Assembly (NCBI GenBank): GCA_903937385.1
Contig: CAIZZF010000020.1
Location: 124,001-188,000 of the forward strand
Origin: an uncultured Holophagaceae bacterium
GTDB lineage: Bacteria > Acidobacteriota > Holophagae > Holophagales > Holophagaceae
DNA length: 64,000 nucleotides
Reading direction: 5' to 3'
Shown: in pieces, positions 3,716 to 60,376 of the stretch
How the letters are laid out: every line of letters starts with the position of its first letter
Position numbering within the stretch: the stretch's first letter is position 1
Program-made: the position numbers and the translations under genes
The notes under the pieces: generated by a model
Database searches by the model: none
What the model saw: only the letters and a program-made list of their open reading frames with translations
What the model was told of the DNA's origin: nothing

Positions 3716-5508
3716 GCTTCCGGCGGCTCAGGTCGGCGGCGCTGCTGCTGGTCGCGCCTCTCCTGGCCGCGGGGCAGGAACCGGCTCACGCGGCTGCGCC
3801 AGCGACAAAGCAGGGCAAGGCCTCCAGCGGAGCCATGAGCGACGCCCAGGCCGCTGAGCTGGCCAAGGAGGCCCTCGGCGCCGAGAACGCCGCCTCCATC
3901 AAGGCCGCCCTGGCCCGGCTGAAGGGGCACAGCTTCAAGTCCAGCAAGGTGCCTGAGCGGGAGCTGGTGCTCTACGCCCAGGGCATGCTCGAGGCCCGGG
4001 TAGGCAACCTCCCGGGCGCCGCCGTGGCGTTCAAGAAGCTGGAGCGGCAGTGGCCGACGTCACCCTTCATGGGGGAGGCCAACACCATCCTGGCGGAGGA
4101 TGCCCTCAACCAAAAGCGCTACAAGGATGCCGAGGGCCGCCTCCACAAGGCGCTGGCCTCGGACATGCCCGCCGAGCGCAAGCGAGGCTCCCAGGAGCTG
4201 CTGATCTGGCTGCTGGTGGAGCAGGGACGGCCTCAGGAGGCGCTGCCCATCGTGCAGGCCCTGAAGCCCTTCACCGGCAGCCAGAAGCCCAGCGAGCGGG
4301 GTCTCGCGGGCATCACCGAGGTGCTCACGGTCACCGGCGCCAAGGACCAGGCCGAGACCGCGCGCAAGGACTTCGCCCGGCTCTATCCCACCAGCGAGCT
4401 GACTCCCCGCCTGGAGCTGGCCTGGGGCCGCCTCCTCGGCCGCTCCGGCGATGCCAAGGGGGCGGCCCAGGTGCTCCGGAAGCTGGTCAAGGACTTCCCG
4501 AAGTCCACTCAGGCTGATGACGCGCGCTTGGCTCTCGCCAGCCTGCTGACGGACGGGAGCCTGCCCGAGGCCAAGGATCTGCCCAGCGCCGAGTCCCTGC
4601 TGGCCGAGGTGCGGAAGGGCGGCAAGAACCTGCCCAAGGGGACGGCCCAGGTCGTGGAGCTGCGTCTGCTCACCGGCAAGAGCCAGTGGGAAGAGTGCCT
4701 CAATGTGGTCGACAAGATGGACCCGGCTCTGCGCGAAGGCGCGGAGGTCAAGAAGCTCTGGGGCGAGGCCTGGAATGCCTGGGCGGGCCAGCGCCTCGAG
4801 AAGGGCATTCCAGGGGAGCTGCTCACGCGGCTGAAGCCGGGCCACTTCGGGGCCCTGGACCCGCGGCTGCGGATCGGGGTCGCGGAGCTGTTCGCTGTGC
4901 ACGGCCTCCTGGAAGTCCTGCCCTCGCTGCTGGCCGATGTGCCGGCGGCCCAGCGGGTCGCGCCGCGCAAGGCCGCGCTGGCCAAGGTCCAGCCCGAGGC
5001 GCAGCCTAGGCAGATCCTGAAGCTCATGCCACCCAAGGGCGACACGCCGGAAGAGGCCCTGTTCCGGGCCAGGGCTGAGGCCGCCCTGGAGAACTGGCCT
5101 TCGGTCCGCAGCGCCCTGCCGCGGGCCCTGCCGGGGCCGGAGCGGGTGAAGGTGATCCTGCGGCTGCTCCAGCGCCCCCTGGGGCCCAAGGAGACCGCCA
5201 CGCAGCGGCACGCGGAGGCGGAAGGCTGGCTGCCACGCCTGACCGAGAAGGTGGAGCTGCGCGAGCCCGTGAGCATCCTGGTCGGTGACCTGCGGCTGCA
5301 GGCCGGGGATGCCAAGGGCGCGCTGGCCCTGTATCCAGGCAGGTCTCTCGCGCCGGAGCAGCGGGGTTGGGTGGCGCTCATGCGGGCCCAGGCCATGCTG
5401 AAGCTGGGCCAGCGCGATCAGGCCCGGTCCGTGATCAAGGAGAGCCGGGAAGAGCAGGGCTTCAAGGGCCAGCGGGACGCCATCGCCCGGAGCCTGGGCG
5501 CCTACTGA
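3712..5508 (+). CDS. Secreted tetratricopeptide-like repeat protein
   Basis: This long (about 598 residues) protein is rich in alanine, leucine, lysine and glutamate. It has an N-terminal signal sequence (SAALLLVAPLLAAGQE) and a series of helical repeats with TPR-like spacing, for example AVAFKKLERQWPTSPFMGEA, DAEGRLHKALASDMP and GAAQVLRKLVKDFPKS. Such proteins usually act as periplasmic scaffolds. No catalytic motif was seen. GTG 3712 overlaps the preceding stop as GTGA and is preferred; another in-frame GTG lies at 3703. It is translationally coupled to the response regulator, so the two may work together. Confidence 0.75.
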   Translation: MSFRRLRSAALLLVAPLLAAGQEPAHAAAPATKQGKASSGAMSDAQAAELAKEALGAENAASIKAALARLKGHSFKSSKVPERELVLYAQGMLEARVGNLPGAAVAFKKLERQWPTSPFMGEANTILAEDALNQKRYKDAEGRLHKALASDMPAERKRGSQELLIWLLVEQGRPQEALPIVQALKPFTGSQKPSERGLAGITEVLTVTGAKDQAETARKDFARLYPTSELTPRLELAWGRLLGRSGDAKGAAQVLRKLVKDFPKSTQADDARLALASLLTDGSLPEAKDLPSAESLLAEVRKGGKNLPKGTAQVVELRLLTGKSQWEECLNVVDKMDPALREGAEVKKLWGEAWNAWAGQRLEKGIPGELLTRLKPGHFGALDPRLRIGVAELFAVHGLLEVLPSLLADVPAAQRVAPRKAALAKVQPEAQPRQILKLMPPKGDTPEEALFRARAEAALENWPSVRSALPRALPGPERVKVILRLLQRPLGPKETATQRHAEAEGWLPRLTEKVELREPVSILVGDLRLQAGDAKGALALYPGRSLAPEQRGWVALMRAQAMLKLGQRDQARSVIKESREEQGFKGQRDAIARSLGAY

Positions 5509-49509: not shown

Positions 49510-50205
49510 TCAGTCTTCAAGCCTCAGCCGGTAGCCAATGCCGGGTTCGGTCTGCAGGTAGCGGGGGCGGGAGGCATCCTCCTCGAGCTTGTGCCTGAGC
49601 TGCGCCATGTAGACGCGCAGATAGAGCGGTTGTGCGCCAGCCACGCCACCCCAGACTTCCTTGAGCAGCTGCCGGTGGGTCACGACCTTGCCGGCGTGGC
49701 GGATCAGGGTGGTGAACAGCCCATATTCAAGGGGGGTGAGATGAACTTCCTGGCCCGCCACGAGCACTTGGCGTCGGGCCAGGTCCACCTGCCACCGCCC
49801 CAGCTTGAACACGGGTTCCTCGATAGCGCCAGGATCGGCGTGGCGCAGCGCCACCCGGATGCGGGCCAACAGCTCGCCGGTCCCGAAGGGCTTGGTGAGG
49901 TAGTCGTCCGCACCCACGTCCAGAGCCCCGATCTTATCGGTCTCCTGCCCTCTCGCTGAGATCACGATCACCGGCGTCTGGCTCCAGGCGCGGAGGCGGG
50001 TCATGAGCTCCAGTCCGTCCATGTCCGGCAGGCCCAGGTCCAGCAGGATCACATCAGGCCGATGCTGCACGGCCAGGGCCAGGCCCTCCTGGCCGGTGCC
50101 AGCCTCCAGGTAGCGGTAGCCACTGCCCTCCAGGGCCACCCGGAGGAAGCGACGCATCTGGGGCTCATCCTCGACGAGCAGGACCTGGAGCGGCGCGCTG
50201 GTCAT
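49510..50205 (-). CDS. kdpE: KdpE response regulator
   Basis: KdpE is the OmpR-family regulator that activates kdp transcription under K+ limitation or osmotic stress. The 231-residue product has a receiver (VEDEP, phosphoacceptor Asp in VILLDLGLPDMDG, ISARGQETDKIGALDVGADDYLTKPF) and a winged-helix output domain (VHLTPLEYGLFTTLIRHAGKVVTHRQLLKEVWG and YLRVYMAQLRHKLE). ATG 50205 overlaps the kdpD stop by 4 bases. It is the last gene of the kdp operon. Its likely sites are the 11-bp-period repeats at 57675-57806. Confidence 0.95.
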   Translation of the reverse strand: MTSAPLQVLLVEDEPQMRRFLRVALEGSGYRYLEAGTGQEGLALAVQHRPDVILLDLGLPDMDGLELMTRLRAWSQTPVIVISARGQETDKIGALDVGADDYLTKPFGTGELLARIRVALRHADPGAIEEPVFKLGRWQVDLARRQVLVAGQEVHLTPLEYGLFTTLIRHAGKVVTHRQLLKEVWGGVAGAQPLYLRVYMAQLRHKLEEDASRPRYLQTEPGIGYRLRLED

Positions 50206-52889
50206 GGACCCTCCTCGGGAATGGCCGGGGCCGTGCCCAGAGGAAGGCTGACCAGGAATTGCGCTCCGCCCTGGGGACGGTTCACGGCCTGGATCTGGCC
50301 CCCGTGGGCGGTGACGATGCCTTTGCATATGGCCAGGCCCAGACCCGCGCCGGGTCGGCTGGTACCGGCCTCGCCCCGCGTGAGCTTCTCAAAGATCCTC
50401 TCCTCCTCGCCGGGTGCGATGCCCGGCCCCTGATCGGTCACCGAGAGGGTGAGGGACTTCCAGGCGGCCCAGGCCTTGATCTCCACTGGGGAGCCCGGCG
50501 GCGAATACTTCAAGGCATTGTCGAGGAGGTTCACCAGCACCTGCTCCATCAGGACGGCGTCCATGGCCACCAGGGGCAGGTCCTCCGGCAGCTGGGTGCG
50601 CACCCGTGTGGCTTCGGTCCCCAGCTCTCGGCGGTTGAGGACGGCACCCACCACTTCCTCCACGGGCATCCACTCCGTGCGCAGGACCAGGCTGCCGGAC
50701 TCGAGTCGGGTGATGTCCAGCAGGTTGCTCACGAGGCGCTGCAGCCGCTGGGCCTCTTCCTGGGCGGAGAGCAGCAGGTCGCGGCGCACGGATTCGGATA
50801 GGTCGGGGGTCTCAAGGGCGGTGCTCACCGCACCCGTGATGACACCCAGCGGCGTCCGCAGGTCGTGGGACACCGAGCTGAGCAGGGCATTGCGGAGGCG
50901 TTCCTCATCGGCCCGGCGCCGGTCTGAGGAGCTCTGCTCTGCCAGGAGCGAGCGCTCCAGGGCCAGGGAAGTGTGGGAGGCGAAGGCCTCCAAGAGCTGG
51001 CGCTGATCTGGCTCGAGCCACTGGGGGGTGCCTTCCGGTAAGAGCCCGAGGATCCCAAGGTTTCCTTTGGAGCCTTTGAGGGGAAGGTAGGTGGCCCTGG
51101 CTCCCGGGAGCGTGAGGGTGCTCAAACCCGCGGGTTCGTCGTGCTCGTAGACCCACTGGGCCACCCCCCGCTCCTGCTCATTCAGGGGGAAGGCGAGCTG
51201 GTGCTGAGGGGCTTCCAGCATTCCGGTGGCATCCGGCAGCATGAGTACGGCGCGGCTCTGAAACTGGGTCGCCACGTTCTGGATGGCAGAGGCCACCAGG
51301 GCGGCGGTGCCGGTGCTTCGGGCCAGCTCCTGGCCCAGGTGGAAGAGGGCCTGAGTCCGCTGCTCCCGGGCGCGGGCCAACCGGGCCTGGGCCCGGATGC
51401 GCTCGGTGAGGTTGCCGATGACCACGCCCAACAGGAGCATCACGGAGAAGGTGCCGACATGCCTAAAATCCGCCACCGCGAAGGTGAAGTAGGGCGGCAC
51501 GAAAATGAAGTCGAAGGCGGCCACGCTGAGCAGCGAAGCCAGCAGGGAGGGGCCTCGGCCGAAGCGGGTGGCGACGATGAGGATGCCCAGCAGGTAGATC
51601 ATCACGATGTCGGCGAGCTCCGTGCGGCGGAAGACCAAGCCTGCCACTCCGGTTGCGATGACCACTGCGGTGGTGCTGAGCAGGTAGTTCCGCAGGGGAC
51701 TGGTGAGGCGGGATCGGATGCCTGGGGCAACGGCCTCCTTTCCTGCCTCTCCGGTGATGACATAGACATCAATGTCACCACTGCTTCGGATGAGGTCATC
51801 CACCGTGGACCCGGCGAAGAGGTCGACCCACCTCGGGCGCGAGGGCTTGCCCACCACGATTTTGGTGATGTTGTGGTCCCGGGCAAAGGCAAGGATATCT
51901 TCGTCAGCACGGCCCGCGCCCTCGATGACGAAAGTCTCCCCGCCCAGCTTCTCCACCAGGCGCAGGTTCGCTTCCACCCGGATGCGCTCGGCCTCGCTGA
52001 ACTTGAAGTGCCTGGGTGACTCGATGTAGAGGGCGATCCAGGGTGCGCTCAGGGCCCCGGCCATGCGGCGGGTGGAACGGATCAGGCGCTCGGAGAGTCC
52101 ATCGGGTCCGACGCAGACAAGCAGGCGATCTCCGGCCGCCCAGGTCTTCCTGATGCCCTCGGACTCCATGTAGCGGCGCATCTGGGCATCGACGTTCTCC
52201 GCCGTGTGGCGCAACGCCAGCTCCCGCAGGGCCAGGAGGTTCCCCTTTCGGAAGAAGTGCTCCTGGGCATGGCGGGCCTGCTCCGGCATGTAGACCTTGC
52301 CTTCCCGCAGCCGCACCAGCAGCTCGTCCGGTGGCAGGTCCACCAGCTCGACTTCATCCGCGCGCGCCATGACCACATCCGGCACGTTCTCGCGGACGAC
52401 GATGCCCGTGATCTGGGTGACCACATCCTTGAGGCTCTCTAGGTGCTGGACGTTCATGGTCGTGAAGACGTCGATGCCGGCGTCCAGCAGGTCCATGACG
52501 TCTTGCCAGCGTTTGGCATGGCGCGAGCCCTGGACGTTGGTGTGAGCCAGCTCATCCATGAGGATCAGTGCGGGCCGGCGGGCCAGGGCCAGTTCCAGGT
52601 CGAACTCGGGAAGGAACTGGCCCATGTAGGCCAGCTCCTTGCGAGGCAGGATCTCCAGGCCCTCGCATAGGGCCGCCGTCTCACTCCGGCCGTGGGTCTC
52701 CACGACGCCGACGACCAGATCTTCCCCAGCGGCCTTCCGCTCCCGAGCCTCGGAGAGCATGGCGAAGGTCTTGCCTACACCGGGCGCGGCGCCGAAGAAG
52801 ACCTTCAGCCTCGCCCGCCCTTCGAGGGCTTCTGCCTCCTGCACCTGGCGGAGCAGCAGGTCGGGATCAGGCCGGCGGGGCTCGGACAT
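50202..52889 (-). CDS. kdpD: KdpD sensor histidine kinase
   Basis: This 895-residue K+ sensor has the N-terminal KdpD domain with Walker A FFGAAPGVGKTFAMLSEARERKAAG, a USP-like domain (about 250-370), four membrane helices (about 395-500), a GAF region and the kinase core: H in SVSHDLRTPLGVITGAVS, NLLDNALKYSPPG, VTDQGPGIAPGEEERIFEKLTR and GAGLGLAICKGIV. Length and order match E. coli-type KdpD. It follows kdpC by nine bases. Confidence 0.96.
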   Translation of the reverse strand: MSEPRRPDPDLLLRQVQEAEALEGRARLKVFFGAAPGVGKTFAMLSEARERKAAGEDLVVGVVETHGRSETAALCEGLEILPRKELAYMGQFLPEFDLELALARRPALILMDELAHTNVQGSRHAKRWQDVMDLLDAGIDVFTTMNVQHLESLKDVVTQITGIVVRENVPDVVMARADEVELVDLPPDELLVRLREGKVYMPEQARHAQEHFFRKGNLLALRELALRHTAENVDAQMRRYMESEGIRKTWAAGDRLLVCVGPDGLSERLIRSTRRMAGALSAPWIALYIESPRHFKFSEAERIRVEANLRLVEKLGGETFVIEGAGRADEDILAFARDHNITKIVVGKPSRPRWVDLFAGSTVDDLIRSSGDIDVYVITGEAGKEAVAPGIRSRLTSPLRNYLLSTTAVVIATGVAGLVFRRTELADIVMIYLLGILIVATRFGRGPSLLASLLSVAAFDFIFVPPYFTFAVADFRHVGTFSVMLLLGVVIGNLTERIRAQARLARAREQRTQALFHLGQELARSTGTAALVASAIQNVATQFQSRAVLMLPDATGMLEAPQHQLAFPLNEQERGVAQWVYEHDEPAGLSTLTLPGARATYLPLKGSKGNLGILGLLPEGTPQWLEPDQRQLLEAFASHTSLALERSLLAEQSSSDRRRADEERLRNALLSSVSHDLRTPLGVITGAVSTALETPDLSESVRRDLLLSAQEEAQRLQRLVSNLLDITRLESGSLVLRTEWMPVEEVVGAVLNRRELGTEATRVRTQLPEDLPLVAMDAVLMEQVLVNLLDNALKYSPPGSPVEIKAWAAWKSLTLSVTDQGPGIAPGEEERIFEKLTRGEAGTSRPGAGLGLAICKGIVTAHGGQIQAVNRPQGGAQFLVSLPLGTAPAIPEEGP

Positions 52890-52898
52890 GGGCCTAGC

Positions 52899-53501
52899 CT
52901 AGCGCAGCTCTGCCAGGGCGAGGTTCAACTTGAGGACATTCACCCGGGCCGCGCCCAGGAACCCCAGCTGAGGTGGCTCGGTGTGGCGGAGGACTAGGCT
53001 CTGGACCCGGTCCTCCGGGAGGCCACGGGCACGGGCCACTCGGCGGACCTGGAACAGGGCTGCGGCAGGCGTGAGGTGGGGATCGAGACCGCTGCCGCTC
53101 GCCGTGACCAGATCCACCGGGAAGGATCCCTGAGTCTCGGAGTCCAGGGATGCCAGGGCCTCCATCCGGGTTCGTGCGGCATTGCCCAGGGCGGGATTGG
53201 ACGGCCCCAGGTTGGAACCCCCGCTGGCCATGGCGTTGTAGGGTCGCGGCTTGCCATCGGTGTCGAGGGTGGCTGAGGGGCGTGGCCAGAACAGGGCAGG
53301 GTCGGTACACTCCTGTCCGATGAGGGCAGAGCCCACCACCTCGCCGTTCTGGCGGATGAGGCTGCCCTCCGCCTGCCGGGGGAAGAAGGCCCGGGCTAGG
53401 CCCGTGACAGACAGAGGATAGGCGATGCCTGTTAGGGCCGCGAGGGCGAGGACACCAACCAGGGCGGGGCGGAGCTGGCCGGCAAGAAAGGGCGTGGACA
53501 T
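52899..53501 (-). CDS. kdpC: Potassium-transporting ATPase subunit KdpC
   Basis: KdpC stabilises the KdpFABC complex. The 200-residue product has one membrane helix near the N-terminus (ALVGVLALAALTGIAYPLSVTGLA), GSALIGQ, FWPRPSAT, YNAMASGGSNLGPSNPAL, and the C-terminal DPHLTPAAALFQVRRVARARGLPEDRVQSLV, all in family order. ATG 53501 lies ten bases after kdpB. It is followed by kdpD. Confidence 0.95.
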   Translation of the reverse strand: MSTPFLAGQLRPALVGVLALAALTGIAYPLSVTGLARAFFPRQAEGSLIRQNGEVVGSALIGQECTDPALFWPRPSATLDTDGKPRPYNAMASGGSNLGPSNPALGNAARTRMEALASLDSETQGSFPVDLVTASGSGLDPHLTPAAALFQVRRVARARGLPEDRVQSLVLRHTEPPQLGFLGAARVNVLKLNLALAELR

Positions 53502-53511
53502 GGTTGGCACC

Positions 53512-55623
53512 TCAGGCGGTGAAATGGAGGGTGACCAGGAGGAAGTCGATGACCTTGATGCCGGCGAAGGGCACCACCAGGCCCCCGAGGCCATAGACCA
53601 GTAAGTTGCGCTCGAGCAGGGCCGCCGCGCCAGCGGAGCGATACTGGACCCCCCGCAGTGCCAGGGGGATGAGCGCGACAATGATCAGGGCATTGAAGAT
53701 CACGGCCGAAAGGATGGCGCTCTCCGGACTGTGCAACCCCATGACGTTGAATACACCCAGGGCCGGATAGGTGGCGGCGAAGGCCGCGGGCAGGATGGCG
53801 AAATACTTGGCCACATCGTTGGCAATGCTGAAGGTGGTGAGGGCACCCCGGGTCATGAGCATCTGCTTGCCGATCTCAACGATTTCGATGAGCTTGGTGG
53901 GATTGGAATCCAGGTCGACCATGTTGCCAGCCTCCTTGGCCGCCTGGGTTCCCGAGTTCATGGCCACGGCCACGTCGGCCTGGGCCAGAGCTGGCGCGTC
54001 GTTGGTGCCGTCCCCGGTCATGGCGACCAGCCGTCCGCCCGCCTGGTATTGCCGGATGAGATTCAGCTTGGCCTCGGGTGTCGCCTGGGCGAGAAAGTCG
54101 TCCACGCCAGCCTCCGCGGCGATGGCGGCGGCTGTAAGAGCATTGTCTCCAGTGATCATCACCGTCTTGATACCCATGGCGCGCAGGTCTGCGAACCGCT
54201 CCTTGATGCCGCCCTTCACAATGTCTTTGAGTTGGATCACGCCGAGGGCTTGGGGGTGCCCGGCCAGGCACTCCGCAACTACGAGGGGCGTGCCCCCAGC
54301 CTTCGATACCTGCTCCACGATGCGGCGGAGGCTCTCCGGGAAGGTTCCTCCTCTCGCCAGGAGATAATCCTCCACCGCTGAGGCGGCGCCTTTCCGGACC
54401 TCCCGGGCCTCACCGCCGACCACCAGATTCACACCACTCATGCGGGTCTGTGCGGTGAAGGGAATGAAGTGCGCCTCCAGGAGACGGAGGTCGCGTTCCC
54501 GGAGCCCGTGCTGGGACTTGGCCAGCACCACGATGCTCCTTCCCTCAGGCGTCTCGTCCGAGAGGGACGAGAGCTGGGCCGCATCGGCTAGGGCTTCCAC
54601 GCCAAGGCCTTCGGCGGGAAGGAAGGCCACCGCTTCCCGGTTGCCGAGGGTGATCGTGCCGGTCTTGTCCAGCAGCAGCACGTCGACATCTCCGGCGGCC
54701 TCCACGGCGCGGCCGCTGGTGGCAATGACGTTGGCCTGGATCATCCGGTCCATTCCGGCGATACCGATGGCACTGAGCAGGGCGCCGATGGTAGTCGGAA
54801 TGAGACAGACCAGGAGCGAGACAAGGACTGTCAGGCTTACGGGCGTTCCCTGCCCGGCGGCCCGGACGCTGAAGATCGAATAGGGCAGCAGGGTGGCGGT
54901 GGCCAGGAGGAACACCAGTGTGAGACCGGCCAGGAGGATGTCGAGGGCGATCTCATTGGGGGTCTTTTGCCGCTTCGCGCCTTCCACCATGGCGATCATC
55001 CGGTCCAGGAAGCTCTCTCCTGGATTGGCGCTGATGCGGATCACCAGCCAGTCCGATAGCACCAGGGTGCCACCGGTCACGGCGCTCCGGTCCCCGCCAC
55101 TCTCCCGGATTACCGGAGCACTCTCGCCAGTGATGGCGCTCTCATTAACGGAAGCGACACCTTCGACCACTTCCCCGTCCCCGGGAACGGTCTCGTCGGC
55201 TCCCACCAGAACAAGGTCGCCGATGCGGAGATCAGGAGCAGCCACGAGGCTGGAGGGGCCCGTCCGGACCGGCGTTTGGAGGCGGCGAGCCTTCACATCC
55301 CGTCGGGATCGACGGAGGCTGTCGGCCTGGGCCTTGCCCCGGCCCTCGGCCATGGCCTCGGCGAAGTTGGCGAAGATGAGGGTGAACCACAGCCAAAGGG
55401 CGATGGCGAGAATGAAGCCGGGGCGGCCGTCGCCATGACCCAGCAGGGCCTGGAGTCCCAGTCCGGTGGTGAAGGCGCTGCAGACCCAGACCGTGAACAT
55501 GACCGGGTTCCTGAACTGGTGCAGAGGGCTGAGTTTGCGGAGGGCATCAAGGACGGCCCGGCGGACCAGGTCTGCCTGAAGGAGGGGACGTGCCTGGGAA
55601 GGGGCGGGCAGGTTGGATCTCAT
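53512..55623 (-). CDS. kdpB: Potassium-transporting P-type ATPase subunit KdpB
   Basis: KdpB is the ATP-hydrolysing subunit. The 703-residue product has the actuator motif [14 protein letters not shown], the phosphorylation site [13 protein letters not shown], nucleotide-binding region with [10 protein letters not shown], the hinge [38 protein letters not shown] and [29 protein letters not shown]. Membrane helices surround these. It overlaps kdpA by 4 bases. Confidence 0.97.
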
Positions 55624-57296
55624 CGGAGGCTCAGCTGTTCAGCAAGGGGGCCCAGCGCCAGGGCCGGCAGGAAGGTGAGGGCCCCCACCAGCAGCACCAC
55701 CCCGACCAGGGTCGCCACGAAGAGCGGGGTGTGGGTCGGGAGGGTGCCGGGTCCTTTGGGCGTGATCTTCTTTCGGCCCAGGGAGCCCGCGAGAGCCAGG
55801 ACCGGGAGAATGGTGCCGTAGCGGCCGATCAGCATGGCCAGGGCCAAGGTGAAGTTATAGAAGGGAGTGTTGGCGTTCAGGCCCGCAAAGGCGCTGCCGT
55901 TGTTGTTGGCGGCGCTGCTGAAGGCGTAGAGCACCTGGGTGAAGCCATGCGGGCCAGGATTCGAGATGGAGCTCAGCGCCGAGGGCAGGAGCACGCCTGC
56001 AGCCGTGCCCACCAGCACGATGGCGGGGGGCAGCAGGATGGCGATGGAGACCATCTTCATCTCGAAGGCCTCCAGCTTTTTCCCCAGGTACTCGGGCGTG
56101 CGACCCACCATGAGGCCGCTGATGAACACGCCCACCATGGCGAAGAGCAGCATGCCGTAGAGCCCGGATCCGACCCCGCCGAAGACCACCTCCCCCAGTT
56201 GCATGAGCCAGAGCGGAAGCAGGCCACCCAGCGGTGAGAGGGAGTCGTGCATGCCGTTCACGGCCCCGCAGGAGGCGGCCGTGGTGGCGGTCGCAAAGAG
56301 GCTGGTGCCAGCCACTCCGAAGCGCACTTCCTTGCCCTCCATGTTGCCAGCGGGTTGGAGCACACCGACGCGGGTCAGCTGTGGGTTCGGCCTTGCCTCC
56401 AGTGTGGAGACCATCGCCAGGGCTCCCAGGAAGAGCAGGGTCATGGCCGCCAGCAGAGCCCAGCCCTGCCGGCGATCCTTCACCAGACGGCCGAAGGTGT
56501 GGCAGAGGCCTGCGGGGATCAGGAGGATCGCCAGGGTCTGAAGGAAGTTGCTCAAGGGGGTCGGGTTCTCGAAAGGGTGTGCGGCATTGGCGTTGAAGAA
56601 GCCGCCCCCGTTGGTTCCCAGCATCTTGATGGCCACCTGGGAGGCGACGGGGCCGACGGCGATGAGCTGCCCGGAGGCGGTGCGGATCGCCCCCGAGAGC
56701 GTCTGGACCACGCCCTGGGAGACCATTACCAGCGCGAACACCAGAGAGAGCGGGAGCAGGATATAGACGGTGCTACGAACCAGATCCACCCAGGCGTTCC
56801 CCAGGGACTCTGACTCGCGCCGGGCGAAGCCGCGGATGAGTGCAGCCAGCACGGCGAGGCCTGTGGCCGCCGACAGGAAGTTCTGCACCGCGAGGCCCGC
56901 CATCTGGGCCAGGTAGCTCAGCGTGGTCTCTCCGGAGTAGGCCTGCCAGTTGGTGTTCGTGGTGAAGCTCACAGCAGTATTGATCGCCAGATCCGTGGCC
57001 ACAGGACCCATGTGGTCTGGATTCAGGGGCAGCAGGGCCTGGGCTTTGAGCAGGGTGTAGAGCGCCAGACCACCGATCAGGTTGAAGAGCAGGATCGCGA
57101 GGGCGTAACTGCGCCACCCCATGTTCTCGTCGTGGACGCCCATCAGGCGGAGCAGACCACCTTCCAGGGGGCCCAGGACCGGATGAAGAAAGGTGCGCTC
57201 ACCCTCGAGAACTCGGCCCATGAAACCGCCCATGGGCACTGAAAGGAGCAACAGGAACAGCAGATAGAGCACGAACTGCAGCCAGGCGGGGCTCAC
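55620..57296 (-). CDS. kdpA: Potassium-transporting ATPase K+-binding subunit KdpA
   Basis: KdpA is the K+ channel-like subunit with four selectivity-filter repeats; visible are [60 protein letters not shown], the [16 protein letters not shown] stretch and [14 protein letters not shown]. The 558-residue product has about ten membrane segments. Its ATG overlaps the kdpF stop by 4 bases. Confidence 0.97.
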
Positions 57297-57385
57297 TGGA
57301 ACTTCTCCGGCATCAACAGGGCGACCACGAGGTAGGCCATCAAGCCCAGGGCGAGGATGAGGGCGAGCAGGAGCGTGGGACTCAT
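57293..57385 (-). CDS. kdpF: KdpF small membrane subunit
   Basis: This 30-residue single-helix peptide (LLLALILALGLMAYLVVALLMPEKF) ends in the P-E-K-F type tail typical of KdpF, which lies between KdpA and KdpB and stabilises the complex. It overlaps kdpA by 4 bases and the preceding small membrane ORF by 4 bases. Confidence 0.9.
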   Translation of the reverse strand: MSPTLLLALILALGLMAYLVVALLMPEKFQ

Positions 57386-57576
57386 GGAATCACCTGGGAG
57401 GACTGGCTGAACTGGACCAGCAGCCAGATCAGCAGAGGAAGGAACATGATCACCAGCAGCCAATGGGCTTCGGAGCGACTCTCCAGACTGGTCTCTCGCG
57501 GAGTTCGCATCGAATCGAGCCCCAGGATAGAGGTGAGCAGGGCCATGGGCAGGAACCAGGGCAATACGATGTGCAT
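57382..57576 (-). CDS. Small two-helix membrane protein at the head of the kdp operon
   Basis: This 64-residue product starts at ATG 57576 with GGAGG five bases upstream. It has two hydrophobic segments (MHIVLPWFLPMALLTSILGL and HWLLVIMFLPLLIWLLVQF) separated by a charged loop (RTPRETSLESRSEA). Its stop overlaps the kdpF start by 4 bases, so it is the first cistron of the kdp operon. It is not one of the standard Kdp subunits and is not recognised. Confidence 0.75.
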   Translation of the reverse strand: MHIVLPWFLPMALLTSILGLDSMRTPRETSLESRSEAHWLLVIMFLPLLIWLLVQFSQSSQVIP

Positions 57577-57674
57577 AGAACCTCCAGTTGTAGGGCTTAA
57601 GCACCAGGAGTCAGAGCTGGGAGGGCTGCTGGTGCCGGAGATTTTGGCCAACGCCACAGGATGGTTCCGAAGGG

Positions 57675-57692
57675 CGTTAAGACGCTGTTAGG
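57675..57692. promoter_or_regulatory. KdpE-type direct repeat, site 1
   Basis: CGTTAAGACGCTGTTAGG contains GTTAAG and GTTAGG starting 11 bases apart, the spacing used by OmpR-family regulators. It is about 100 bases upstream of the kdp operon start and matches the inverted copy at 57789 at 16 of 18 positions. Confidence 0.65.
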
Positions 57693-57706
57693 AGTTCGGC
57701 CCGGGG

Positions 57707-57724
57707 CGTTAGGTTGTTGTTGGG
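57707..57724. promoter_or_regulatory. KdpE-type direct repeat, site 2
   Basis: CGTTAGGTTGTTGTTGGG-like sequence with GTTAGG (57708) and GTTGGG (57719), again 11 bases apart and in the same orientation as site 1, 32 bases (about three helical turns) from it. Confidence 0.55.
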
Positions 57725-57788
57725 ATGCCGGCTTCCTGGTCCAAGGAGTCGCAGTGCCTGGGTTCCGGACGCAGGCCTCGTCCCAATT

Positions 57789-57828
57789 CCTAACACCGCC
57801 TTAACGCCCTGCATGGGCAACCTATAAA
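57789..57828 (+). promoter_or_regulatory. KdpE-type site 3 overlapping the kimA-like promoter
   Basis: CCTAACACCGCCTTAACG (57789-57806) is the inverted form of site 1. Its second half CTTAAC (57800-57805) sits exactly where a -35 would be, 17 bases before TATAAA (57823-57828), pointing toward the KimA-like gene. Class II activation by an OmpR-type regulator is the simplest reading. The remaining about 100-base leader to ATG 57931 shows only a short G-C stem near 57868-57888 and no riboswitch that I recognise. Confidence 0.6.
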
Positions 57829-57930
57829 CCTACTCACCTGCTTTGAGAGGGGGGGGTAAGGCGAGGTTGCCGGCGCCGACGGCAGCATCGTTCCAGGTCC
57901 AATGGCCCGCATTTCCAGGAAGCCCACCTC

Positions 57931-59823
57931 ATGCCCAACTTCCGAACCCTCCTTCTGGGCCGCCGCCTTGCCAGCGAAGAGAGCCACGAGACTCGGATCA
58001 GCAACCCCATCGCACTCGCGGTGTTCAGCTCCGACGCGCTGTCTTCCGTGGCCTACGGCACCCAGGAAATCATGGCGCCCCTCACGGCGGCCATTGCGAT
58101 CTTCGGCGCCGGGGTCCTGGGCTGGTCCTGGTGGGTGGCCATCGGCATCGTGGGCCTGCTGCTGGTGCTGAACGTCAGCTACCGCCAGACCATCCACGCC
58201 TATCCCAGCGGGGGCGGCGCCTACCTGGTGGCCAAGGACAACCTGGGGGAGGTCGCGGCCCAGACCGCGGGGGCCTCGCTGCTCATCGACTACATCCTGA
58301 CCGTGGCCGTGTCCGTGTCCGCCGGCGTGTCCGCCATCGTCTCTGCCTTCCCTGGTATGGAGGCCCACCGCGTGCTCCTTGCCGAGGTCATCATTGGCTT
58401 CATCGGCCTCATGAACCTGCGGGGCGTGAAGGAGAGCGGACTGATCTTCAGCCTGCCCACCTACGGTTTTGTGATCTGCATCTTGGGCCTGCTGGCCAAG
58501 GGCTTCTGGAACGTCGCCACCGGCCATGAGGTCGTGGTCGCCCACGCTGCGCCGGTCCACCTGGAGGGCACCTCGAAGCTGGCTGTGCTCTGGCTGCTGG
58601 CCCGGGCCTACAGCGCCGGCTGCACGGCCCTGACCGGTGTGGAGGCCATCAGCAACGGCGTGACGGCCTTCAAGGAGCCGGTCTCCCACAATGCCTCCAA
58701 GACCATGACCTGGATGGTGGTGCTGCTGGGCACCATGTTCCTCGGCATCACCTACCTGACGAACCACTACGGGCTCACCTACCAGCCGGACTCGCCCGAG
58801 ACCCTGCTGTCCCAGCTGACCCGCATCATCCTGGGCGGCGCCGAGCACGGCCTGCCGAAGCTGATCTACCTCACCAGCACGGGCTTCACCATGGCCATCC
58901 TGGCCCTGGCCGCGAACACCGCCTATGCGGACTTCCCGCGGCTGGCGGCGCTCCATGCCCGGGACGGCTTCCTACCTCGGCAGTTCACCAGCCAGGGCGA
59001 TCGCCTGGTCTTCTCCAACGGCATCTTCATCCTCTCCCTGGCGGCGGGCTTCCTCGTCCTGCTCTTCGGGGCCAAGGAAGACCACCTGCTGCCCCTCTAC
59101 GCCGTGGGAGTCTTCCTGGGCTTCACCATCAGCCAGACCGGCATGGTGGTACGCTGGTTCCGCCTCAAGGGCAAGGCGTGGCGGTTGAAGGCGGTTGTGA
59201 ACGGACTGGGCGCCGTAACGACCCTGATCGTCATGCTGGTCATCGCCGTGACGCGCTTTGCCCACGGGGCCTGGATCGTCATTGTGCTCGTGCCGGTGCT
59301 GGTGTTCACCTTCTTCAACATCCACCGGCACTACATCCGTATCAAGTCCCTCCTCGCCGCCAGCCGGGTGGACTACTTCGGCCCCCGGCGGAACCGCGTG
59401 GTGGTGCTGGTCTCCGGCATCCACGCCGGGGTGGTGCAGGCCCTCAACTACGCCAAGGTGATTGCCGAACATGGCGAGGTGGAGGCCCTGACCATCGACT
59501 TTCCAGATGAGCACGGACGGGATAGCGCCGCCCTGGAGAAGCTGCGGGCAGACTGGCCCCGCTACTGCGAGGGCATCCCTCTCCGCTCGCTGCGCAGCCC
59601 TTTCCGCAAGGTCGTCGAGCCCATCGTGCAGGAGCTGGACCGCATGCGCATGGTGGAGCCGGAATACACGCTCACCGTAATCCTGCCCGAGTTCGTGACC
59701 GGCCATTGGATGGAGAACGTTCTGCACAACCAGACGGCCTGGCGCCTCAAGGGAACACTGCTGCGTAAGCCCAAGATCATCGTCATCTCCGTCCCCTATC
59801 ATGTGGACCCCCTCGCGGAGTAG
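57931..59823 (+). CDS. KimA-like potassium importer (APC superfamily)
   Basis: This 630-residue permease matches the KimA/YdaO type of high-affinity K+/H+ symporter: about twelve membrane helices (residues about 30-470) and a cytosolic C-terminal domain. Close wording includes FSSDALSSVAYGTQEIM, SYRQTIHAYPSGGGAYLVAKDNLGE, LLIDYILTVAVSVSAGVSAIVSAFP and LMNLRGVKES. The C-terminal domain reads VVVLVSGIHAGVVQALNYAKVIAE. Annotation pipelines would often call this an amino-acid permease; divergence from the kdp operon supports K+ transport. AGGAAG lies upstream of the ATG. Confidence 0.85.
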   Translation: MPNFRTLLLGRRLASEESHETRISNPIALAVFSSDALSSVAYGTQEIMAPLTAAIAIFGAGVLGWSWWVAIGIVGLLLVLNVSYRQTIHAYPSGGGAYLVAKDNLGEVAAQTAGASLLIDYILTVAVSVSAGVSAIVSAFPGMEAHRVLLAEVIIGFIGLMNLRGVKESGLIFSLPTYGFVICILGLLAKGFWNVATGHEVVVAHAAPVHLEGTSKLAVLWLLARAYSAGCTALTGVEAISNGVTAFKEPVSHNASKTMTWMVVLLGTMFLGITYLTNHYGLTYQPDSPETLLSQLTRIILGGAEHGLPKLIYLTSTGFTMAILALAANTAYADFPRLAALHARDGFLPRQFTSQGDRLVFSNGIFILSLAAGFLVLLFGAKEDHLLPLYAVGVFLGFTISQTGMVVRWFRLKGKAWRLKAVVNGLGAVTTLIVMLVIAVTRFAHGAWIVIVLVPVLVFTFFNIHRHYIRIKSLLAASRVDYFGPRRNRVVVLVSGIHAGVVQALNYAKVIAEHGEVEALTIDFPDEHGRDSAALEKLRADWPRYCEGIPLRSLRSPFRKVVEPIVQELDRMRMVEPEYTLTVILPEFVTGHWMENVLHNQTAWRLKGTLLRKPKIIVISVPYHVDPLAE

Positions 59824-59908: not shown

Positions 59909-60376
59909 ATGACCCGAGCCCTGCTGCAGACCGACAAAGGCGACATCAACATCGAGCTGTTCTCCAAGGAGGCCCCGGGCACCGTGGCCAACTTCGTGAA
60001 GCTCATCGAGGCCGGCTTCTACGACGGCCTGGCCTTCCACCGCGTGATCCCGGATTTCATGATCCAGGGCGGCTGCCCCAATAGCCGCGAGGGTGCCTCC
60101 GGGCACGCCGGCACCGGCGGTCCCGGCTGGAAGATCCCCTGCGAGACCGCGGGCAACCCCCACCAGCACCAGCTTGGCGCCCTCTCCATGGCCCACGCGG
60201 GCAAGAACACGGGCGGCAGCCAGTTCTTCGTGGTGAACGGTGACCGCCGCAACGTGGCTCACCTGGACGGTGTCCACACGGTCTTCGGCCAGTGCGTAGG
60301 CGAGGCGGACATCGCCGTGGTGAAGGCCATCCGCGGCGACGACCGGATCATCAAGGCTACGGTCACCGAGGCCTAA
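59909..60376 (+). CDS. Cytosolic cyclophilin-type peptidyl-prolyl cis-trans isomerase
   Basis: This 155-residue PpiB-like enzyme starts directly with the fold ([29 protein letters not shown]) and has no signal peptide. Catalytic and binding residues are in [14 protein letters not shown] and [19 protein letters not shown], with [13 protein letters not shown] near the end. It differs from the exported homologue at 5553. A very stable hairpin follows the stop. Confidence 0.95.

Follow-up and report, generated by a model that had tools for sequence, protein, structure and literature searches.

Gene content of the kdp-kimA locus

The window, i.e., the whole 64-kb stretch of DNA that was analysed, carries on its minus strand a 65-residue open reading frame followed by kdpF, kdpA, kdpB, kdpC, kdpD, and kdpE, and on its plus strand a divergently oriented kimA homolog (Table 1). 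Named close relatives of this genome are Geothrix species and metagenome-assembled genomes (MAGs) of Holophagaceae (Acidobacteriota), with KimA identity reaching 99%.

The product of the kimA homolog aligns with Bacillus subtilis KimA (PDB 6s3k) at residues 5 to 625, the cytosolic domain included, with an E value of 2.4e-132, and this is its sole PDB sequence match at E ≤0.001. The four K+-coordinating residues, Asp36, Tyr43, Thr230, and Tyr377, whose roles are described in the available portion of PMC10284832, are all found in the window protein and in 21 of 21 box-bearing KimA rows of the tree discussed below. Judged by its sequence, the importer, which had been called KimA-like in an earlier sequence-only reading of this DNA, is firmly identified as a full-length KimA homolog, with a predicted function in K+ transport.

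As that reading had stated, KdpE is encoded in the kdp operon, together with kdpD and kdpFABC. It contains a receiver domain and an OmpR-type DNA-binding domain and matches Escherichia coli KdpE (PDB 4kny) with an E value of 6.7e-75. KdpE is also its top NCBIfam model, with a score of 276.9 bits that is under the equivalog cut-off of 325; the window KdpD likewise scores 935.6, below its equivalog cut-off of 1123. The KdpE name thus rests on synteny, the best hit, and the recognition residues, not on the model. The membrane-like 65-residue frame ahead of kdpF has no Pfam or NCBIfam family match and may represent an additional small subunit of Kdp or a regulator.

Table 1. Features of the kdp-kimA locus, and porin genes near kdp in three related genomes
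Feature	Position	Strand	Remarks
kdpE, OmpR/PhoB-family response regulator	49510..50205	−	Start placed at MTSAPLQVLLVEDE; PF00072 + PF00486
kdpD, full-length sensor kinase	50202..52889	−	KdpD + Usp + DUF4118 + GAF + HisKA + HATPase
kdpC	52899..53501	−	PF02669, 3.3e-69; start selected within a longer ORF
kdpB	53512..55623	−	TIGR01497, 1022.5 bits, above cut-off
kdpA	55620..57296	−	PF03814, 2.5e-238
kdpF, 29 aa	57293..57382	−	PF09604, 5e-9
65-aa membrane-like ORF upstream of kdpF	57382..57579	−	Many relatives have one
Probable −10 element of the kdp promoter, CATCCT	57658..57663	−	11 bp after the proximal box
kdp-side KdpE-type box, proximal, CCTAACAGCGTCTTAACG	57675..57692	−	
kdp-side KdpE-type box, distal, CCCAACAACAACCTAACG	57707..57724	−	32 bp from the proximal box
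kimA-side KdpE-type box, CCTAACACCGCCTTAACG	57789..57806	+	
Probable −10 element of the kimA promoter, CAACCT	57818..57823	+	11 bp after the kimA box
kimA homolog, 630 aa, K+/H+ symporter family	57931..59823	+	B. subtilis KimA 6s3k
Cyclophilin gene 3′ of kimA	59909..60376	+	PF00160; outside the proposed system
BBP2 porin genes	L139:3470-4882, L141:2344-3696, L146:5718-7094		Genomes G036, G011, and G034

The boxes and the promoter layout

The pattern GTTARG-N5-GTTRGG has exactly three matches in the window, at 57676-57692 (+), 57708-57724 (+), and 57789-57805 (−), so the three copies reported earlier and their 11-bp period are both correct. In 100 dinucleotide shuffles of the window, the mean number of matches is 0.01 and none reaches 3, a flattering figure because the pattern was derived from the same three sites; the independent test is conservation in relatives. 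Read in the direction of the genes, the box spans 18 bp and has the consensus CCYAAC-N5-CYTAACR. Its half-sites, CCYAAC and CYTAAC, are direct repeats with an 11-bp period, which is the half-site period of the sites of OmpR-family regulators. Each box is oriented towards its gene, with two boxes 32 bp apart at the kdp promoter and a single one at the kimA promoter.

The complete 3.68-Mb genome contains four exact boxes, three of which are those of the window. The fourth, on contig C1 (C1:79574, or L152:2575-2592), adjoins a gene for a Trans_reg_C protein and sits between this gene, which encodes an OmpR-type winged-helix regulator, and a 216-residue open reading frame with a signal-like start. 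L154:2875-2892 (−) and L155:2352-2369 match it, with similar flanks, in genomes G041 and G042. This box comes without the YANNCT motif at the offset described below and is not counted as a KdpE target; it may belong to the adjoining regulator. A genome-wide regulon prediction at up to two mismatches was dropped, as the box pattern gave 109 matches versus 184 for the reversed control pattern, so that only near-exact boxes are informative.

The composite of a box, 11 bp, and CANNCT is found exactly twice in the window, at the kimA and kdp promoters. At both promoters, CANNCT is probably the −10 element, with the box occupying the −35 position. The sequence-only reading had taken TATAAA for the −10 element of kimA, 17 bases from a −35 element that coincided with a half-site. 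The spacer between TTAACG (57801-57806) and TATAAA (57823-57828) is actually 16 bp long, and TATAAA follows the box in 1 of 23 aligned kimA promoters, that of the window only; CAACCT at 57818-57823 is therefore preferred. If CAACCT is the −10 element, the box would replace the −35 hexamer rather than overlap a canonical one. A consensus scan of 57560-57960 reveals no sigma-70-type promoter, as expected of activator-dependent promoters, and no terminator was found in the kdp-kimA interval.

In the related genomes described in the next section, YANNCT begins at offset 29 from the start of the box in 22 of the 23 boxed kimA promoters and at offset 28 in the remaining one. On the kdp side, it is found at offset 28 or 29 in 26 of 33 promoters, the exceptions being G014, G022, G024, G026, G032, G036, and G053. 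These 33 rows comprise 31 genus members with KdpA, G030, where no pump was found, and G053, which represents another genus.

Conservation of the boxes in the order

The comparison set consists of 77 genomes of the order. Exact boxes number 64, in 33 of the 77 genomes, versus 25 matches to the reversed control pattern in all of them. According to their coordinates, 55 of the 64 boxes lie beside kimA or kdp, 23 of them just upstream of kimA and 32 at kdp (including two in G007 and the one in G036, where the operon begins with a porin gene and the box precedes it), and the other 9 are found elsewhere. All 23 kimA boxes point towards kimA; the distance from the box start to the start codon is 115 to 142 bases. 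The number of exact boxes expected by chance on the sense strand of these 23 upstream regions is 0.001.

A proximal kdp box with at most one mismatch is found in all 31 examined members of the genus that have KdpA (23 exact, 8 with one mismatch), a count that leaves out the 32nd, G023, in which KdpA is present and the kdp promoter is fragmented. In 14 of these 31, a second box, again with at most one mismatch, is located exactly 32 bp upstream. As for other genera, a box at up to one mismatch is present in the kdp region of G053, none is found in those of G050, G052, G060, G065, and G066, and the region of G057, which starts inside kdpA, is uninformative. A lack of conservation of the repeats in relatives had been named beforehand as one finding that would refute the proposal, and the boxes are strongly conserved.

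Among the 23 kimA regions, the mean pairwise identity of the half-sites is 96%, a value close to 100% by construction because the rows were chosen by having the box. Mean identity is 75% for the hexamer at offset 29-34, on which no choice of rows was based, and 35 to 37% in the flanks, little above random. Less biased support for the box comes from the −10 spacing and from the phylogenetic tree, where 21 boxed rows form one clade without an unboxed member.

Several boxes in individual genomes are associated with other genes. A BBP2 (OmpL-like) β-barrel porin is encoded between a KdpE-type box and kdpF in G036 and G011, with one mismatch in the G011 box, and a BBP2 porin is encoded beside kdpC in G034. 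Such a porin would be consistent with K+ entry across the outer membrane being controlled in the same way. G034 also has an exact box at L146:5530-5547 (−), 21 bases before the start of a 243-residue open reading frame that has a signal-like start, lies between kimA and the porin gene, and is a possible further KdpE target. In G007, two boxes stand back to back ahead of kdpA, at L138:4582-4599 (−) and 4606-4623 (+), each followed by CANNCT. The leftward one points at the 3′ end of a gene running rightward, which we take to be sdhB-like; no kimA is present there, and this box probably belongs to a relict kimA promoter.

Rearrangements of the locus and apparent loss of the pump

The gene order of the window, with the boxed kimA divergent from kdpFABC, is found in 10 of the 23 cases; one of these is G029, where much of the stretch from kdpA to kdpC is missing in the assembly. 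In 7 more, kdpDE, kdpFABC, or both are adjacent to kimA in another order, typically with kdpDE and kimA divergent and kdpFABC behind kimA. In 5 others, kimA is divergent from kdpD and no pump was found. The last case is G047, in which kimA and kdp reside on different contigs, both with boxes, and no contig end lies within 67 kb of kimA.

The five genomes of the pump-less group, G017, G030, G040, G041, and G042, are 85 to 98% complete, and neither KdpA nor KdpC was found in them (0 of 5 in the KdpC search, with the window genome and that of Geothrix limicola, G009, as positive controls), an absence that in MAGs could also reflect assembly loss. In four of the five, kdpE follows kdpD; in G017, the contig ends inside kdpD. 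G017, G030, G040, and G041 occupy two separate places in the KimA tree. A KdpD domain is present in all 23 genomes with a boxed kimA.

Retention of the box in the pump-less and unlinked cases indicates that the kimA box does not depend on a neighbouring pump and instead accompanies kdpDE. For this reason, the earlier description of the interval as one shared regulatory region stands only in part: the boxes are common to kdp and kimA, and the interval is better described as two separately boxed promoters, since kimA retains its box when the pump is not found.

Neighbourhoods that combine kimA with kdp genes are also seen in three other Acidobacteriota families, in two of which kimA is part of a kdp cluster. 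There, kimA is located behind kdpB-C and a sensor-only KdpD (L179), between a kinase-regulator pair and kdpABC (L180), or next to KdpD-type sensors (L178). Matching of coordinates yields at least three such neighbourhoods among the matches listed, and none of the three has an exact box within 330 bp of kimA.

KimA paralogs and a probable origin of the boxed copy

In addition to the window copy, this genome encodes a tandem pair of other KimA proteins (C8:439829-443716; L153), which are 66% and 61% identical to it. A tandem kimA pair is found in many members of the genus (also L181, L182, L176, and L177), without a KdpE-type box. Its products possibly form a heterodimeric importer, or the pair is possibly regulated in a different way.

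The KimA tree includes 72 rows, left after removal of those shorter than 560 residues and those repeating the first 300 residues of another row. All 21 box-bearing rows fall into one clade, with support of 97 and no unboxed member; G042 and the truncated G037, absent from the tree, are assigned to it solely on the basis of 98% and 90% identity, respectively, to the window copy. No exact box is found within 330 bp upstream of the genes for the 48 other Holophagaceae rows or the 3 outgroup rows. Of the 48, 28 are single genes or stand first in a tandem pair; the other 20 stand second and are weak controls, with largely coding sequence in the 330 bases upstream. The box follows kimA through rearrangement and unlinking. 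In Geothrix limicola, the boxed copy beside kdp is 89% identical to the window protein and the unboxed first gene of the tandem is 85% identical.

This distribution fits a single origin of the kimA box, so that the 23 boxed genes would not represent independent gains. In the simplest history, a tandem-type kimA would have been moved next to kdpDE, probably once in the genus, and would then have captured a KdpE promoter; some descendants would then have lost the pump and retained kdpDE with kimA.

Cyclic di-AMP

The diadenylate cyclase (DAC) domain is found in none of the 77 genomes of the order, compared to 305 of 396 sampled genomes of the phylum. Searches for known RNAs and riboswitches in the window interval return two chance-level Rfam matches, far below the gathering scores, and nothing reaches the gathering score in four kimA loci, namely, that of the window and three loci of other kimA copies. 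The suggestion that this KimA lies outside the riboswitch logic of Firmicutes agrees with both results. In the protein itself, Arg337, His579, Asn580, and Gln581 of the c-di-AMP pocket of B. subtilis KimA are kept in 21 of 21 boxed rows, and in all 21, P479 is replaced by Leu and S582 by Thr. This pocket may serve another ligand or nucleotide.

KdpE as the candidate regulator

The E. coli KdpE site, as given in the accessible part of PMC3264566, consists of a direct repeat of 6-bp half-sites with a 5-bp spacer, upstream of kdpF, and the same source names KdpE residues R193, R200, and T215 as important. The box has an identical geometry and is likewise located upstream of kdpF. The aligned residues of the window KdpE are R, R, and T, and among 17 ungapped KdpE rows, a single position of the recognition helix is variable (A or T in YMAQL). 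The base sequence of the box differs from that of the E. coli site, but the part of PMC5401905 consulted likewise finds no noticeable similarity of the Mycobacterium smegmatis site to other published KdpE sites.

The locus very probably contains two back-to-back promoters, each activated by phosphorylated KdpE (KdpE~P), for Kdp and KimA under K+ shortage. The box, its orientation, its spacing to CANNCT, its conservation, its restriction to one KimA clade, and its persistence through rearrangements in an order where no DAC was found are seen in the sequence; KdpE is most likely the binder, activation the direction, and low K+ the signal. Under this model, KdpD would sense K+ shortage and phosphorylate KdpE, and a KdpE~P dimer would sit on each 18-bp box as on two direct half-sites 11 bp apart. 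It would then recruit RNA polymerase to the CANNCT −10 element, the box taking the place of a −35 hexamer in the manner of PhoB sites. The two boxes of the kdp promoter are spaced by about three helical turns, and the kimA promoter has a single box. Low K+ would induce both transporters together, the ATP-driven pump Kdp and the proton-coupled importer KimA, without c-di-AMP. KdpE-type control of kdpFABC-DE and the divergent kimA, the core of the original proposal, is supported by the conservation of the boxes, their clade restriction, and the fact that no DAC was found in the 77 genomes. Speaking against it are the difference in sequence from the E. coli site, the KdpE and KdpD scores under the NCBIfam cut-offs, the 7 kdp-side promoters without YANNCT at the offset, the 8 proximal kdp boxes with one mismatch, the 9 exact boxes found elsewhere, and the c-di-AMP pocket residues that KimA retains.

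It is unlikely that KdpE binds the kimA box and represses the gene, an arrangement in which the importers would alternate. The box does cover the −35 position, where a bound protein can also block the polymerase, but the kdp side shows the same orientation and the same 11-bp interval before CANNCT, and KdpE is described as an activator of kdpFABC in both E. coli (PMC5458449) and M. smegmatis (PMC5401905), as far as the available portions of these papers go. The lack of a sigma-70-type promoter in the consensus scan of the interval likewise argues for activation. That the boxes of both promoters are bound by some other OmpR-family or ToxR-like winged-helix regulator, a decidedly improbable reading, would be compatible with the 11-bp period, which is common to OmpR-family proteins, and with the position of the fourth exact box of the genome next to a Trans_reg_C protein gene. 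However, that box has no YANNCT at the offset, and the boxes track kdp and kimA in genomes that all (23 of 23) encode a KdpD domain; even the pump-less genomes retain kdpD, and four of them kdpE, beside the boxed kimA.

Two further readings have very little probability. In one, c-di-AMP would control KimA as it does in Firmicutes, either via a riboswitch or by direct action, and the boxes would serve kdp only. Conservation of four pocket residues in every boxed row speaks for it; against it stand the lack of any DAC match in the 77 genomes of an order whose phylum mostly has it in the sample searched, the absence of Rfam matches above chance level upstream of kimA, and the fact that kimA keeps its own box where kdp is elsewhere. 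The other, equally improbable, holds that an unusual sigma factor uses the boxes as core promoter elements, their conservation reflecting transcription alone. A box ending 11 bp before a conserved CANNCT could be read this way, but the exact box is rare, with four copies in 3.68 Mb, 14 of 31 kdp promoters carry two boxes 32 bp apart, and the ends of the half-sites lie 12 and 23 bp ahead of the −10 element, unlike a −35/−10 layout. A broader evolutionary reading, in which KdpDE replaced c-di-AMP in the control of a duplicated kimA in Geothrix that had come to lie beside kdpDE and acquired a KdpE promoter, and the pump was lost in at least two lineages, leaving KimA as the main transporter target of KdpDE, with a retained nucleotide pocket that may now accept a different ligand, has slightly better than even chances of being correct.

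Implications and comparison with known systems

The available portions of PMC9945522, PMC6488665, PMC10117811, and PMC11302148 describe no action of KdpE on kimA, and no description of KdpE control of KimA was found in the open-licence literature, a body that leaves subscription papers and preprints outside. The same literature yielded nothing that treats Geothrix, potassium, and kdp together. In the cited papers, so far as their accessible text extends, KimA appears as a c-di-AMP target of Firmicutes and KdpE as the activator of kdpFABC. Within the literature searched, the arrangement would therefore be a new target of KdpE and a new regulatory logic for KimA, assembled from known parts. If true, it would explain how soil bacteria of the genus Geothrix and their close kin, which seem to lack c-di-AMP, control KimA, and it would extend the KdpE regulon to a second importer. 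The linked, inverted, unlinked, and pump-less loci would provide a natural rearrangement series for studying how a regulator changes its targets, and the box can be used to find further KdpE targets in Geothrix.

Direct half-sites with an 11-bp period that replace the −35 element, about 10 to 11 bp before the −10 element, are typical of the pho boxes of PhoB. The layout proposed here shares the half-site period and the −35 replacement with the pho box and differs from it in the regulator, the sequence, and the signal. The E. coli KdpDE-kdpFABC system is similar in that KdpD and KdpE are encoded beside kdpFABC, in the geometry of the site, and in the arginines of the recognition helix. Its site, TTTATA/TTTACA, is T-rich and has geometry alone in common with CCYAAC/CYTAAC; it is located at −72 to −50, according to the part of the source consulted, whereas the box here ends 11 bp before the putative −10 element. 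In addition, the box is often duplicated at kdp in these genomes and a second transporter, KimA, has a box of its own.

B. subtilis KimA is homologous to the window protein over the full length, with the K+-coordinating and most pocket residues alike. Its gene is under a c-di-AMP riboswitch, whereas here neither a riboswitch nor a cyclase was found and control by KdpE is most likely. In Bacillus thuringiensis, kdp and kimA are both controlled by c-di-AMP riboswitches, as reported in the accessible part of PMC6488665. One regulatory input is thus common to Kdp and KimA in that organism, as it would be here, but the shared input there is an RNA sensor, whereas in the Geothrix group it is most likely a two-component regulator.
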